A stretch of 10,255 nt of DNA from Chloroflexota bacterium (GTDB lineage Bacteria; Chloroflexota; UBA6077): positions 1 through 10,255 of the forward strand of contig JAMCTB010000082.1 of assembly GCA_023380955.1 (NCBI GenBank), written 5' to 3'. Under the pieces are notes generated by a model. The model was not told the DNA's origin. It saw only the letters and a program-made list of their open reading frames with translations, and did not search any database. The first letter of the stretch is position 1. Each line of letters opens with the position of its first letter. Made by a program: the position numbers and the translations under genes. This document shows, piece after piece, positions 966 through 9,711 of this stretch.

Positions 966-999
966 CCCCCTCTCCGAAGCGGAGAGGGGGTCTTCTTTT
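966..999 (+). terminator. Intrinsic terminator of the kinase/regulator operon
   Basis: A perfect 11-base-pair stem (966-976 with 980-990, CCCCCTCTCCG / CGGAGAGGGGG) has a 3-base AAG loop and is followed by TCTTCTTTT. It ends the two-component operon. The preceding bases 955-965 (CTCACCCCCTA) resemble the tail of the repeat at 1000-1035 read backwards, so this terminator was probably built from a dispersed repeat. Confidence 0.8.
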
Positions 1000-1035
1000 C
1001 CCTCTCCCCCTGGGAGAGGGTCAGGGTGAGGGCTG
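1000..1035 (+). repeat. 36-base hairpin-plus-tail dispersed repeat, copy 1
   Basis: A 9-base-pair stem CCCTCTCCC / GGGAGAGGG with loop CCT is followed by the tail TCAGGGTGAGGGCTG. A second copy lies in the opposite orientation inside murE (8289-8324). The two agree at 33 of 36 positions and differ only in the three loop bases. Confidence 0.85.
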
Positions 1036-1040
1036 TGGCG

Positions 1041-1060
1041 TCAAAGGGGCCTGGCCCCCT
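1041..1060 (-). terminator. Possible weak terminator of the aminotransferase gene
   Basis: Read on the minus strand, a GGGGC-CAG-GCCCC hairpin lies just after the aminotransferase stop and is followed by only TTTG. The stem is short and the T-run poor, so termination may instead depend on other factors or on the convergent hairpins beyond it. Confidence 0.35.
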
Positions 1061-2986: not shown

Positions 2987-3028
2987 CCGTGGAGTGAACA
3001 ACCAGATCTAGAGGGCAGACCCGATGAT

Positions 3029-3077
3029 GGGGCGCCGAGGGGCTCTGAGGACGGAGCCCCCGGCGCCCCTTTTGTTT
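3029..3077 (+). terminator. Strong terminator-like hairpin in the leader of the multiheme cytochrome gene
   Basis: GGGGCGCCGAGGGGCTC (from 3029) pairs with GGAGCCCCCGGCGCCCC (to 3069) around a short loop, with one bulged base, and is followed directly by TTTTGTTT. It has all marks of an intrinsic terminator. It ends only about 12 bases before the cytochrome's start codon at 3090 and overlaps the cytochrome's ribosome binding region. It could end the upstream gene, with readthrough or attenuation controlling the cytochrome. Confidence 0.8.
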
Positions 3078-3089
3078 GAGGGAGAGAGC

Positions 3090-4520
3090 ATGCAAGCAAA
3101 GATGCTGCTTCGGACGAAGAGGTCGGTGGAGAGACGCTTGGCCGTCGCCCTGGCCGTCGTGGCTGTTGCAGTGGCGATCGCCTTTGCCTTCATAGGAATG
3201 GCTCTCGCAGAACCCAATCAGCAACCCAAGACCACCCACGAGTTGCAGGGCAGGGAGAACTGCCTGACCTGCCACCCGGTTGGAGGCGGCGTGAAGCCAT
3301 CGCCGGCCAATCACGCCTCCTACAGCAACGCCACCTGCCTCGGATGCCACCCCGTCGCTGGCGCTGCGCCGGCAGCAGCCGCGAAGCCCCCGGCGCAGCC
3401 CACCACACCGCCGGCCGAGCCGTCGCGACCCGCGTCCCCGGCCGCACAGGCCCCGGCGCCATCGCCCCCCGCCACTGCCCAACCCTCCAGCCCTCTGGAG
3501 CAGTTGGGGGGAGAGACCAGCAAACCGGTCCCGCCCGCCTCCGCCGCGCCGGCGCCATCCTGCATCGATTGCCACAAGAACCCCGGCCTCTCGATGGCCC
3601 TGGGGAACGGGGATAAGCTGAGCCTTACCGTGAATGAGGCCGACATGAACCAGTCGGTTCACCAGGGCAAGCTGAGCTGCACCGACTGCCACAGCCGCAT
3701 CACCGGCTTTCCCCACAAGAAGGTTCAGTTCAACAGCAGACAGGAGTACTCCATCGCCCAGTACGAGGCGTGCAAGCGGTGCCACTTCGCCAACTACACC
3801 AAGACCCTGGACAGCATGCACTACAAGGTGATGGCTTCCGGGAACCAGAATGCCCCGCTCTGCACCGATTGCCACGGCTACCACTCCGTGTCGATTCCCA
3901 ATGAGCCGCGCACCAAGATCTCACTGAGCTGCGGCAAGTGCCACACCGACGTCTACGAGACCTACTCCAAGAGCGTCCACGGCGCAGCCTTGATGAACGG
4001 CGGGAGCGCGGACGTGCCGGTGTGCACCGACTGTCACGGCGCTCACGTCATCAGGGATACCAGCTCAGCCTCTTTCCGCAACAACACGCCCGAGATGTGC
4101 GCCAAGTGCCACTCCGATGCGACGATGATGGGCAAGTACGGACTGTCGCCCAACGTCTTCAAGACCTACGCCCAGGACTTCCACGGCGCGACGGTGAGCC
4201 TGACCAAGCGCCAGAGCGGGGACAGTTGGACCGCCAAGGCCGTCTGCTCCGACTGCCATGGTGTCCACAACATCAAGTCCTTCAAGAACGAGGAGCCGGC
4301 CCAGGTCAGGCAGGACGTGATGGTCGCCTGCCAGAAGTGCCATTCCGACACCAGCAACAACTTCCCTGAGGCCTGGATGGGCCATTACCAGCTCAGCCTG
4401 GAGAAGACCCCTCTGCCCTTCCTGGTGAGGTCCTTCTACTGGGTCATGATCCCCTTCATGCTCGTGGGGCTGCTGCTCCACATCGTCGTCGACCTCTGGC
4501 GCATCGCCAGGAATCGGTAA
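3090..4520 (+). CDS. Undecaheme c-type cytochrome, exported and C-terminally membrane-anchored
   Basis: The product has 476 residues with 11 CXXCH heme-binding motifs, at Cys 58, 83, 158, 197, 228, 258, 281, 312, 337, 386 and 414. The N-terminus is a Sec signal: basic region, hydrophobic core about 18-38, and a likely cleavage after ALA at residue 40. The first two motifs form a small head, separated from the other nine by a Pro/Ala-rich linker (about 91-156). Further His residues (SVHQG, SMHYK, SVHGAA, DFHGAT, GHYQL) look like distal heme ligands, suggesting mostly bis-His hemes as in cytochrome c3/NapC/c554-like proteins. A single helix at about 449-470 with a basic end anchors it, leaving the hemes outside the cytoplasmic membrane. 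ATG 3090 is chosen because GAGGGAGAGAG lies just upstream; the frame extends to 3024 but that stretch is the terminator hairpin. Inferred role: electron transfer with the cytochrome b encoded 14 bases downstream. Confidence 0.92.
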   Translation: MQAKMLLRTKRSVERRLAVALAVVAVAVAIAFAFIGMALAEPNQQPKTTHELQGRENCLTCHPVGGGVKPSPANHASYSNATCLGCHPVAGAAPAAAAKPPAQPTTPPAEPSRPASPAAQAPAPSPPATAQPSSPLEQLGGETSKPVPPASAAPAPSCIDCHKNPGLSMALGNGDKLSLTVNEADMNQSVHQGKLSCTDCHSRITGFPHKKVQFNSRQEYSIAQYEACKRCHFANYTKTLDSMHYKVMASGNQNAPLCTDCHGYHSVSIPNEPRTKISLSCGKCHTDVYETYSKSVHGAALMNGGSADVPVCTDCHGAHVIRDTSSASFRNNTPEMCAKCHSDATMMGKYGLSPNVFKTYAQDFHGATVSLTKRQSGDSWTAKAVCSDCHGVHNIKSFKNEEPAQVRQDVMVACQKCHSDTSNNFPEAWMGHYQLSLEKTPLPFLVRSFYWVMIPFMLVGLLLHIVVDLWRIARNR

Positions 4521-4534
4521 GGGAGGGAACGGAT

Positions 4535-5308
4535 ATGAAAGCCGAATATCAGGGACAAACCCGGGCGCCTGAATACTTCGTCCGCTTCAGCCCCAGCCAG
4601 CGGGCGGAACACCTGTTTATGATGATCTCCTTTACCGCCCTGGTGGTAACCGGATTGCCGCAGAAGTTCTTCGGCTCCGGCTGGGCTCAGACCATCATCC
4701 TGGCCCTGGGCGGGATCGAGACCACTCGGCTGGTCCACCGGGGCTTCGCGATACTGTTCTGCCTGGAGGCCCTGTACCACGGGGCCTTCATCGCCCGACT
4801 GATAGTGACGGGCCGCTTCGTCCCCAGCATGATACCCGGACTGAAGGACGTAGCCGACGCCCTGCAGTGCTTCAAGTACTGCATCGGGGCCTCCTCCGTG
4901 TACCCCAGGTTCGATCGCTTCGATTTCCGCCAGAAGTTCGAGTATTGGGGTGTGGCCATGGGCGGGGTGATCGTGATCCTCTCGGGGCTGATGCTGATGT
5001 TCCCCGCCCAGGTGACCCATCTGCTCCCAGGGGCCTTCGTGCCGGCGGCCAAGGAGATGCACGGTGGGGAGGCGATCCTCGCCTTCTCGGTCATCGTGGT
5101 CTGGCACATGTACGGGGCTCACTTCAACCCCCTGCGCTTCCCGGGTGACCTCACCATCTTCACCGGCAAGATGTCGCGGGAGCAGATGATCGAGGAGCAC
5201 CCCCTGGAGTATGCCCGAATCATGGGGATCACCCAGGAAGAGGAGAAGCACGAAGAGGCGAAGAGGCCCCAGACGGCCATACTGGAGCGGCACATCCCGA
5301 TCCAGTAG
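4535..5308 (+). CDS. Membrane cytochrome b (formate dehydrogenase gamma / b561-like), quinone-linked partner of the multiheme cytochrome
   Basis: This 257-residue integral membrane protein has four hydrophobic segments, near 25-45, 65-90, 137-158 and 177-197. Candidate heme b ligands are H26 (QRAEHLFMM), H68 (RLVHRGFAI), H176 (KEMHGGEA) and H191 or H196 (VVWHMYGAH), the pattern of FdnI/b561-like diheme cytochromes. The polar C-terminus after about 200 is cytoplasmic-looking and rich in Glu and Lys. GGGAGGG lies 7 bases before the ATG, and the gap to the cytochrome c gene is 14 bases, so the two are surely co-transcribed. By family knowledge such proteins pass electrons between quinone and a periplasmic partner. 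The direction (quinol oxidation or quinone reduction) is not decided by the sequence. A perfect terminator palindrome follows. Confidence 0.9.
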   Translation: MKAEYQGQTRAPEYFVRFSPSQRAEHLFMMISFTALVVTGLPQKFFGSGWAQTIILALGGIETTRLVHRGFAILFCLEALYHGAFIARLIVTGRFVPSMIPGLKDVADALQCFKYCIGASSVYPRFDRFDFRQKFEYWGVAMGGVIVILSGLMLMFPAQVTHLLPGAFVPAAKEMHGGEAILAFSVIVVWHMYGAHFNPLRFPGDLTIFTGKMSREQMIEEHPLEYARIMGITQEEEKHEEAKRPQTAILERHIPIQ

Positions 5309-7265: not shown

Positions 7266-7336
7266 TCACGCGGAGGCGCGGAGACGCGGAGACGCGGAAG
7301 ATACATAATCGTCGGCTTCTCCGCGTCTCCGCGTGA
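7266..7336. repeat. Inverted repeat built on an 8-base tandem unit (GCGGAGAC)
   Basis: Bases 7266-7299 hold several tandem units of GCGGAGAC or close variants. The right arm 7320-7336 is the reverse complement of 7266-7282 with one mismatch. The AT-richer centre (AAGATACATAATCG) would be the loop. The whole stretch 7127-7543 has no convincing gene. It holds this repeat, the hairpin at 7141, a small GAGGC-GAA-GCCTC hairpin at 7373-7385 and the 75-base element at 7416. Confidence 0.75.
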
Positions 7337-7415
7337 GCCTACACCGTCTCGGCGCGTACAACTCGTCGGTCTGAGGCGAAGCCTCGTTAGTACTCCGCCA
7401 CGAAGGTTTAGAGAT

Positions 7416-7490
7416 GTAGGGCAGGGCGCTCTGCCCTGCCGCCGGCCTGTCATCGCCACGCGGGCGGTGGGGCACAGGGCCCCACCCTAC
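7416..7490. repeat. 75-base double-hairpin palindromic element, copy A
   Basis: The element is bounded by GTAG and CTAC. It has two hairpins with 8-base-pair stems and 5-base loops: GGCAGGGC-GCTCT-GCCCTGCC (7420-7440) and GGTGGGGC-ACAGG-GCCCCACC (7466-7486), separated by 25 bases. Copy B at 9618-9692 has the same length and the same hairpin offsets. It lies between the convergent DUF4367-like and murE genes. Confidence 0.85.
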
Positions 7491-7543
7491 GTATCAAGAC
7501 CACCGTGGCGGACCACCAAGCCCTGGATCCCGCGGCGGCACCC

Positions 7544-9190
7544 CTACTCGGGCCGATCCGCCCGGTACCCCAGCTCCGCGAGCAGCCGCCGGGCCACCTC
7601 AGCGTCGTTCCACGGGACCAGCTCCGCGCCGATAACCTGGCGCCGCTCGTGCCCCTTGCCGGCCAGCAGCACCGTGTCGCCCCGGCGAGCCCGGTGGAAG
7701 GCCTCACGGATCGCCTCCTCCCGGTCGGCGATCTTCAGGTAATGCTCGCCCTCTCGCCATCCCTCGGCCCGGGCCCCCTCGGCGATCCGCTCAGCGATCT
7801 CCAGAGGGTCTTCGAAGCGAGGATCGTCCACGGTGAAGAGGCCGAAGTCTGCCACGGTGGCCGCGATTCTGCCCATCTCACCCCGGTTGCCGGGGTCCCT
7901 CTCGCCGGCCAAGCCGAAGAGGACGAACAGCCTCCCCGGCGTCGTCGGTCTGAGGGTGCCAAGAACCGTCCGGAGGGCCTGGGGGGTATGGGCGAAGTCG
8001 ACTATCACGGTGAAGGGCTGGCCGCCATCGACCCGCTGCATGCGGCCGGGCACCGAGTCCACCAGGGCCATCGCCTGGCGGATCTGCTCGAGACTCGCCC
8101 CCTGGCTCAACCCCACGGCCGCGGCCGCCAGCCAGTTGTACACGTTGAAGCGTCCGGCCAGCCGCGATTCCACCTCCACCGCGCCCGAGGGCGTGGCCAG
8201 GGTGAAGCGGGAGCCGCCCGGCAGCAGCCGCACGTCGGCCGCCGTCACGAAGGAGTCCCGGATACCGAGTGCTGAGTGCTCAACGCTCCAGCCCTCACCC
8301 TGACCCTCTCCCAAAGGGAGAGGGGAACTCATCTCCGCGTCGCCCCTTCGCCCCATCGCCCCGTCTCCCCGTCTCCCCGTCGCCCCCTCGATCCCGTACC
8401 AGATCACCCGAGCCCTGGTCGCCGCGGCAAGCTGCGGGGAGTGGGGATCGTCGGCGTTCAGCACCGCCACCTTCTCGACCCCTTTGTCCACCGCCCTGTC
8501 CAGCAGGGCGAACAGCTTTGCCTTAGCCCGCAGGTAGCTCTCCACGGAGCCGTGGAAGTTGAGATGCTCGGGGCTCAGGTTGGTGAACACCGCCGCATCG
8601 AACTCACAGTGGAGCAGACGATCGAGCGCCAGGGCGTGGGAGCTGGACTCCAGCACGGCGTAATCGATCCCCTCATCCACCATCTGCCGCATCAGCCCCT
8701 GAACCTCCACCGGCTCCGGCGTGGTGTGCTGGGTGTCGTTGTGGCTGATCCGCCCTCCCACCTTCACGTCGGCGGTGGTGATGAACCCGGTCTTATGACC
8801 CATGGCCTCGATGATCGCGCTCACCAGGTGGGTGGTGGTGGTCTTGCCGTCGGTGCCGGTCACCCCCACGACCCGCAGCCGGCGGGCTGGGTAGCCGTAG
8901 AAGGAGGCCGAGAGGTCGGTCAGAGTCCTGCGGGCGTCGGGCACCTGAACCAGGGGCACCCCCTCGGGGATGTGCACCGAGGGATTCTGGGTGACCACGG
9001 CGGCAGCGCCCCGACGGAGGGCATCCGGGATGAAGGCGGATCCATCGACGTGGAAGCCCGGCAGGGCTACGAACAGCTCTCCCGGCTTCACCAGACGGGA
9101 ATCGTAGGCGATGCCCGTCACGGTCGTGTCCTGGTCCCCCAGCAGTCGGGCCTCGGGCAACTCCCTCAAGATCTCGCGCAACGTCGGCAT
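7544..9190 (-). CDS. murE: UDP-N-acetylmuramyl-tripeptide synthetase (MurE)
   Basis: MurE adds the third amino acid to UDP-MurNAc-L-Ala-D-Glu in the cytosol, using ATP. All three Mur ligase domains are present in 548 residues. The N-terminal domain has YDSRLVKPGELFVALPG. The central domain has the P-loop GVTGTDGKTTTT with K116, the segments ESSSHALALDR and FTNLSPEHLNFHG, and the likely carbamylated Lys K223 (YLRAKAKLF). The C-terminal domain has VDFAHTPQAL, GLAGERD, the specificity motif DDPR (455-458) and AGKGHE. The usual DNPR motif of diaminopimelate-adding enzymes reads DDPR here. Residues about 268-312 are extra, encoded by dispersed repeats; without them the length would be about 503, normal for the family. 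The start is supported by GAGGTG 4 bases upstream and an extended -10 box at 9238-9246. No murF, mraY or ftsI lies beside it. Confidence 0.94.
   Translation of the reverse strand: MPTLREILRELPEARLLGDQDTTVTGIAYDSRLVKPGELFVALPGFHVDGSAFIPDALRRGAAAVVTQNPSVHIPEGVPLVQVPDARRTLTDLSASFYGYPARRLRVVGVTGTDGKTTTTHLVSAIIEAMGHKTGFITTADVKVGGRISHNDTQHTTPEPVEVQGLMRQMVDEGIDYAVLESSSHALALDRLLHCEFDAAVFTNLSPEHLNFHGSVESYLRAKAKLFALLDRAVDKGVEKVAVLNADDPHSPQLAAATRARVIWYGIEGATGRRGDGAMGRRGDAEMSSPLPLGEGQGEGWSVEHSALGIRDSFVTAADVRLLPGGSRFTLATPSGAVEVESRLAGRFNVYNWLAAAAVGLSQGASLEQIRQAMALVDSVPGRMQRVDGGQPFTVIVDFAHTPQALRTVLGTLRPTTPGRLFVLFGLAGERDPGNRGEMGRIAATVADFGLFTVDDPRFEDPLEIAERIAEGARAEGWREGEHYLKIADREEAIREAFHRARRGDTVLLAGKGHERRQVIGAELVPWNDAEVARRLLAELGYRADRPE
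8289..8324 (-). repeat. 36-base hairpin-plus-tail dispersed repeat, copy 2 (inside murE)
   Basis: On the minus strand this reads CCCTCTCCC-TTT-GGGAGAGGG and then TCAGGGTGAGGGCTG. It is identical to copy 1 at 1000-1035 except for the three loop bases. It is translated as part of MurE. No T-run follows, so it should not terminate murE transcription. Confidence 0.88.
8341..8388. repeat. 8-base tandem repeat, six copies, inside murE
   Basis: The six consecutive units on the plus strand are CGCCCCTT, CGCCCCAT, CGCCCCGT, CTCCCCGT, CTCCCCGT and CGCCCCCT. Six units total 48 bases, so the frame is preserved, and three units give the 8-residue protein period GATGRRGD / GAMGRRGD. Confidence 0.85.
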
Positions 9191-9605: not shown

Positions 9606-9617
9606 CCGGCCGTTCCT

Positions 9618-9692
9618 GTAGGGCAGGGGTTCATCCCCTGCCGCCCGGCCCTCGCCGCCACGCCGACGGCGGGGGACAAGCCCCCGCCCTAC
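9618..9692. repeat. 75-base double-hairpin palindromic element, copy B
   Basis: The element is bounded by GTAG and CTAC. Its hairpins are GGCAGGGG-TTCAT-CCCCTGCC (9622-9642) and GGCGGGGG-ACAAG-CCCCCGCC (9668-9688), with a 25-base spacer. The spacer agrees with copy A at 17 of 25 positions. Both stems stay fully paired although three stem positions differ from copy A. It sits between the ends of the small membrane protein and lutC-like genes. Confidence 0.85.
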
Positions 9693-9711
9693 GCCACGGA
9701 ATTGCTGACGG

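Follow-up and report, generated by a model that had tools for sequence, protein, structure and literature searches.

Whether usable protein sequence can come from selfish repeats has been an open question since the description of the Rickettsia elements, and it is raised again by a 10,255-nucleotide stretch of DNA (the window, meaning the whole stretch analysed) from an uncultured Chloroflexota bacterium. A sequence-only reading of the window had noticed that murE carries, at 8255-8389, an in-frame patchwork of three dispersed repeats in a variable loop region, with the reading frame and the Mur motifs intact on both sides. How did this segment arise, and why is it retained? The best explanation, to which we assign a probability of about 0.8, is recurrent in-frame insertion of dispersed micro-repeats that are kept where a loop or linker tolerates them.

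Membership of the window protein in the MurE family follows from two findings. Its match to TIGR01085 (MurE) scored 487.2 bits, above the curated cut-off of 257.3, and covered residues 21-537, and the Pfam domains Mur_ligase, Mur_ligase_M, and Mur_ligase_C are present. The insert is flanked by Mur domains on both sides within an uninterrupted 548-codon frame, and the intactness claimed earlier was thereby verified. Structure modelling, a check proposed in the sequence-only reading, yielded a standard MurE fold (AlphaFold2; mean pLDDT 81.1, pTM 0.82), whose best fold matches in the PDB were the MurE-like PAP11 and MurE enzymes. Residues 271-309, located between strands 261-267 and 314-323, had pLDDT values below 50, and the insert segment is a predicted disordered loop. 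An example of a tryptic peptide expected from the translated protein is GDAEMSSPLPLGEGQGEGWSVEHSALGIR.

The limits of the insert (Table 1) were set by comparison with loop-less relatives and are uncertain by a few codons; they agree with the interval noted earlier. In the alignment the window protein is 43 residues longer at this point than the shortest relative, P0027. Read in coding order, the insert consists of the 8-base array, the hairpin repeat, and two 7-base units. TRF reported a 24-base row over the same array (8330-8390, score 73), and the hairpin is 89% complementary over 45 nt to its second copy. Exact tandem 8-mers were observed 19 times in the window vs. 0.23 in shuffles of the window, and exact tandem 7-mers twice vs. 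1.1. The array and the hairpin exceed chance, and the 7-base pair alone is within chance; support for the heptamer therefore comes from the 7-residue periodicity of the loops of relatives, described below. Two of the three repeats first claimed thus stand on the window by themselves. That they are dispersed holds for the hairpin (968-988 and 997-1041) and for the octamers, which gave separate TRF rows downstream of murE at 7268-7298 and 7318-7334; for the heptamers searched, no second pair besides 8267-8280 was found within the window.

Table 1. Positions of murE, its insert, and related repeats in the window.
Feature	Position	Strand	Basis
murE, UDP-MurNAc-tripeptide synthetase, 548 aa	7544..9190	-	ORF listing, uninterrupted 548-codon frame
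In-frame insert, MurE residues 270-314	8249..8383	-	Alignments vs. loop-less relatives
8-base tandem array, coding strand GACGGGGA-like, reads roughly EGATGRRGDGAMGRRGDA	8338..8390	-	TRF score 71, 6.6 copies
Hairpin repeat, stem about 8304-8325, reads SPLPLGEGQGEGWS	8283..8327	-	Inverted match to 997-1041
7-base unit, two copies, coding strand AGCACTC (GAGTGCT), reads about EHSAL	8267..8280	-	Sequence search
Second hairpin copy, between response-regulator gene and aminotransferase gene	997..1041	+	Inverted-repeat search
Related hairpin stem CCCTCTCCGAAGCGGAGAGGG, same intergenic gap as 997-1041	968..988	+	Repeat search
8-base arrays ACGCGGAG and inverted copy, apparently non-coding gap downstream of murE	7268..7334	.	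TRF, inverted repeat

The gap that holds the second hairpin copy was delimited by ORF ends at 949 and 1067. A further dispersed family is represented in the window by a 77-nt direct repeat (TGTAGGGCAGGG...CCCTACG) at 7415-7491 and 9617-9693, with 75% identity and apparently outside genes; the 7415-7491 copy sits within an inverted repeat at 7387-7519 with 63-nt arms. At 3024-5308 a cytochrome b561-type gene comes after a multihaem cytochrome c gene, and the two are likely an electron-transfer pair. Towards the 3' end of the b561-like gene, a tandem of CGAAGAGG (5251-5267) reads KHEEAKR, a peptide that resembles HEGHEEARR in the MurE loop of P0016.

The insert also differs from its surroundings in composition. 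GC contents at the three codon positions were 0.69/0.62/0.71 in the insert vs. 0.71/0.47/0.89 in the rest of murE; the codon-position pattern of the gene is missing from the insert. As to the terminal inverted repeats and target-site duplication of a MITE, the flanks of the filled site show only an imperfect likeness, TCCCGGATACC at 8256-8266 vs. TCCCGTACC at 8392-8400. The same insert was found in P0002 (representative of a cluster of 3 sequences, on a 2418-base contig) with two substitutions, I263M and G298S. The window gave no match to Rfam at gathering score, and a known RNA element was rejected on this basis.

We compared the segment among relatives over P0001 residues 263-328. The clade was defined as the window protein and its 33 nearest hits (P0001-P0034), bounded by a drop in identity from 66-67% to about 50%; the outside set consisted of 87 proteins among the best 120 of 6040 MurE hits. 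Within the clade the segment was 23-74 residues long and exceeded 26 residues in 30/34 proteins (26 or fewer in P0010, P0012, P0027, and P0034). Outside, it was 24-25 residues in 86 of the 87 listed proteins and 34 in P0050. The sequence-only reading had named conservation of these residues in distant MurE proteins as evidence against itself, and the short segment outside the clade speaks the other way; an ancestral long loop that was later lost was rejected for the same reason. With P0027 as reference, 30/32 clade proteins from P0001-P0033 had an insertion of at least 4 residues at position 271, a count that includes the window's own MurE and its near-twin P0002 and leaves 28 further relatives; P0034 was omitted because of a divergent C-terminus in the alignment. 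No other internal point in P0001-P0033 had an insertion of at least 4 residues relative to P0027; P0018 also has a longer N-terminus. As a control, the aminotransferase from the window showed an internal insertion of more than 2 residues in 0/60 clade rows (P0122-P0181, the window's own included; 60 of the best 120 hits). Extra residues at the MurE loop range from none to 51 relative to P0027. Outside the loop P0031 and P0032 share 96% identity; inside it they have 15 vs. 36 residues, a difference of 21, and loop sequence and length differ also in the close pair P0013/P0018. The earlier description of a variable loop region was thus borne out, with the same point lengthened across the clade, content that differs between members, and low model confidence over residues 271-309. 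A scan of genome contigs found at least 80 murE loci, the best identity being 49% among the matches listed.

The content of these loops resembles the window repeats. Hairpin-type peptides (PLPLGEGxGEG or SPLPRGREGQG) occur in the MurE loops of P0001/P0002, P0006, P0016, and P0020, an octamer-type peptide (GDGETGRRGE) in P0019, and 7-residue repeats such as TQNSELSTQHPAPSTQNSELSTQHSF in P0028. Periodicity was measured in 28 of 32 loops, those with at least 12 residues. Self-matches at lag 7 numbered 93 vs. 58.2 +/- 7.2 in shuffles, a value reached by 0/1000 shuffles, and the result held when P0001 was left out (90 vs. 54.5). At lag 8 the 63 self-matches did not differ significantly from shuffled loops (55.4 +/- 6.8; 143/1000) and exceeded all of 1000 draws of stretches from other parts of the proteins (mean 37, maximum 55). 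In a tree of the loop-removed proteins, the hairpin carriers fell in three well supported subclades, each with non-carriers, and repeated gain of the hairpin would be a simpler reading than early gain followed by many losses. The encoded peptides suggest that the loops of relatives are repeat-derived at the DNA level as well, and one MurE point appears to have been filled repeatedly with different repeats.

Among 400 genomes of the phylum, one (G095) contained the sole clade-level MurE (75% identity); four matches had E values of 1e-80 or better, the others having 41-51% identity. No further clade-level MurE was found among 16 genomes of the order of G095 or 29 of its class. The MurE of G095 itself has no insert. 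The 21-base hairpin core occurs in this genome in 50 exact copies vs. 0 for a reversed control pattern, and by a codon-GC rule 27 of the 50 lie in coding-like ORFs. These 27 were read as GEGQGEG (21), PHPxPLP (3), LTLTL (2), and RVRVR (1). The GEGQGEG frame was used by 21/25 in-gene copies of the variant with four open frames (G variant), a bias with a binomial p of about 1e-9 if frames are equal and copies independent; many genic copies share longer composite contexts, and they are therefore not all independent events. The TAACCC variant places a stop in the GEGQGEG frame, so its absence from the 21 GEGQGEG copies is not evidence. The bias could also stem from insertion or from copy lineage instead of selection.

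Pfam matches flank or span the hairpin insert in 13 G095 genes. These genes encode a NuoL-type subunit (C-terminal match below cut-off), a Liv-type permease-ATPase fusion, two ABC exporter-like proteins, HypF (two copies), a DUF2298 protein, a RecF/SMC-like protein, PriA, Mfd, an AIRS-domain protein, a metallophosphatase, a BcrAD-type activator, and a GltD-like oxidoreductase (match after the insert below cut-off or partial). In DnaE a hairpin copy follows the OB domain. Under a laxer rule, 30/50 copies were in coding-like ORFs, and for 22 of these neither ORF end was closer than 45 residues; N-terminal cases among the in-ORF copies may be wrong starts. The same rule placed 4/53 copies (1/23 and 3/30) from six other Chloroflexota genomes in coding-like ORFs, these 53 being the listed places out of 212, and the difference from G095 was significant (Fisher p 1.2e-8). 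Gene invasion as a general trait of the hairpin was accordingly rejected. A result that speaks against the preferred reading came from a 400 kb sample of G095: although 85-92% of the sample is coding, called genes held just 10 of the 35 hairpin pieces detected (nhmmer E up to 0.1), in 4 genes and N-terminal in two of them, and the other 25 lay outside. A palindrome with pieces on both strands is counted twice here.

Of the other repeats in G095, the octamer GTCKCCCCGTCKCCCC had 0 copies, doubled GACGCGGA had 5, and three-unit heptamer arrays of one pattern numbered 2. Four matches to PF01797 (Y1 transposase family) were found, and the flanks examined at these four loci contained no exact or relaxed hairpin. 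Across the phylum the hairpin core is patchy, present in 66/400 genomes with up to 61 copies; hairpins in G095 are mostly TGACCC (38/50), those in G030, G083, and G040 nearly all TAACCC (TGACCC 6/133). At L099:552-2552 in G095, a BPD_transp_2 permease and an ATPase (ABC_tran, BCA_ABC_TP_C) are encoded in a single ORF and are separated by repeat peptides of the octamer and hairpin types. Liv permease and ATPase are usually separate genes, and a repeat may have fused the two here.

In PriA, the linker between the 3'-binding domain and the helicase is probably another variable segment that repeats have filled in this clade. Its length is 25-94 residues in G095 (L113) and 12 near relatives (P0242-P0253), ordinary (25-36) in 9/13 and long in G095, P0242, P0248, and P0251. 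Repeat-like peptides (GDAETRRHGDAETRRRGEGRGEG) were seen in the linkers of G095, P0242, P0243, P0244, and P0251, and the hairpin-like peptide recurs in G095 and P0242. In the next 21 relatives the linker was 31-35 residues in 20, and 98 in P0268. The alignment covered 33 of the best 120 listed hits, obtained with a query that began about 170 residues ahead of the likely start. Judging from G095 and an identity gap, these near relatives would belong to the MurE clade.

Insertion of micro-repeats into tolerant sites would proceed as follows. Dispersed micro-repeats, namely a REP-like hairpin and tandem arrays of 7- and 8-base units, would have spread in this Chloroflexota clade and land both within genes and between them. 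Copies that shift the frame, carry a stop, or hit the fold would be lost, and those that lengthen a loop or linker by a multiple of three bases free of stops would persist. The 7- and 8-base units tested encode an identical peptide in all three frames of one strand, so tolerance of such arrays depends only on length modulo three and orientation. Each of the three heptamers tested lacks stops in just one orientation, and four of the six hairpin frames are open; whether an insertion survives thus depends on its length, its orientation, and where it lands. The MurE loop between the two strands would be such a tolerant site, filled, lengthened, and refilled several times, with slippage perhaps extending the tandem arrays, and the outcome would be a predicted disordered loop with no conserved sequence. 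Variation of MurE at a loop and of PriA at a linker fits purging elsewhere. We infer translation and tolerance of the loops, with purging rather than benefit as the force at work.

Benefit is the core of one alternative, in which a long disordered loop helps MurE through partner docking, regulation, or crowding, and selection prefers the SPLPxGEGQGEG frame. The shared frame of the in-gene G-variant copies in G095 (21/25 in one of four open frames) is what such selection would leave, and 30/34 clade proteins retain some extra residues. However, sequence and length vary even within P0031/P0032 and P0013/P0018, and P0010, P0012, P0027, and G095 manage without the loop. A frame bias is also expected if the LTLTLS and ERVRVR frames are merely harmful, and the copies share contexts. 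We consider a useful loop improbable, though it is the alternative we take most seriously.

Low-complexity drift, in which local slippage and random changes enlarged the loop, its likeness to repeats being a GC-rich coincidence, would account for a 7-mer pair that is within chance, and slippage can extend tandem arrays in place. It does poorly with the hairpin, which is the same 45-nt element as 997-1041 (89%), whose 21-base core is high-copy in G095 with 0 for the reversed control, and whose peptide has counterparts in three MurE subclades as well as in the PriA proteins of G095 and P0242; we regard drift as very unlikely. An assembly or binning artefact, with repeats collapsed or wrongly joined, deserves mention since repeats are a classic cause of misassembly and MAG labels in the clade are unreliable (aminotransferase homologues are labelled Sphingomonadaceae and Bacteroidetes). 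It is scarcely credible in view of the intact murE frame on both sides, the in-frame lengthening of this point in the 28 further relatives, and a second assembly (P0002) that has the insert with two substitutions. The sequence-only reading had itself raised misassembly, and its view of repeats inserted into a MurE loop is supported by our analysis and extended by the clade-wide variation and by the in-frame hairpins in other genes of a relative.

Repeat insertion in tolerant sites can be compared with known systems. RPEs of Rickettsia are described as palindromic, dispersed elements of about 150 bp that lie in frame within unrelated protein genes and encode a conserved peptide (PMC10969869). 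Like them, the repeats studied here are inserted in frame in protein-coding genes (MurE and the G095 genes). Unlike them, the window hairpin is about 45 nt rather than a palindrome of about 150 bp with a conserved peptide, though one peptide frame does dominate in G095, and the elements form a patchwork of a hairpin with tandem 7-/8-mers in which one loop is varied across a clade. The MurE case works like RPEs and is not a member of that family; to RPEs it adds the patchwork composition, the clade-wide variation at one point, and the frame preference. GTAG/CGTC REPs are reported as short palindromes, mostly intergenic with some intra-ORF, many of these in genes for DNA synthesis or repair, and recB of two Xanthomonas species was struck at about the same site (PMC3733652). 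The hairpin is likewise a short palindrome with copies inside ORFs. A REP is defined by a 20-40 bp palindrome with terminal GTAG/CGTC, and the hairpin at 8283-8327 has neither tag on either strand; further unlike REPs, tandem 7-/8-mers take part. As to the association of REPs with a Y1 tyrosine transposase (RAYT), no link was seen at the four G095 loci. Tandem heptamers are known as STRR in cyanobacteria (PMC2670836, PMC4748335) and as TAACTGA repeats in Beggiatoaceae, the latter spread in the genome with some in ORFs; their forward orientation is described as having stops in all frames, and they are mainly intergenic and, in ORFs, mostly peripheral (PMC4679880). A comparable dispersal of head-to-tail heptamers may exist in our case, in which the two window units are within chance, the 7-residue periodicity lies in relatives, and G095 has 2 three-unit arrays of one pattern; unlike TAACTGA repeats, the array here is internal, sits in a loop of an essential enzyme, and is joined to other repeats. 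In the literature searched, no intragenic micro-repeats of this kind were described in Chloroflexota.

The MurE loop of this uncultured Chloroflexota bacterium provides a natural record of stray DNA turning into protein-coding sequence, with about 30 natural alleles on a common scaffold that are seemingly built from different repeats. More tentatively, and with the odds somewhat against it, we propose that several unrelated micro-repeat families may act as a genome-wide supply of disordered segments that repeatedly fill the same loops and linkers of core enzymes, MurE and PriA among them, under selection for a single hydrophilic frame, and that neighbouring genes may even be fused in this way. 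With the natural MurE alleles and the probable PriA site, it can be tested directly how well inserts are tolerated, which frame is preferred, and how fast segments are gained and lost.
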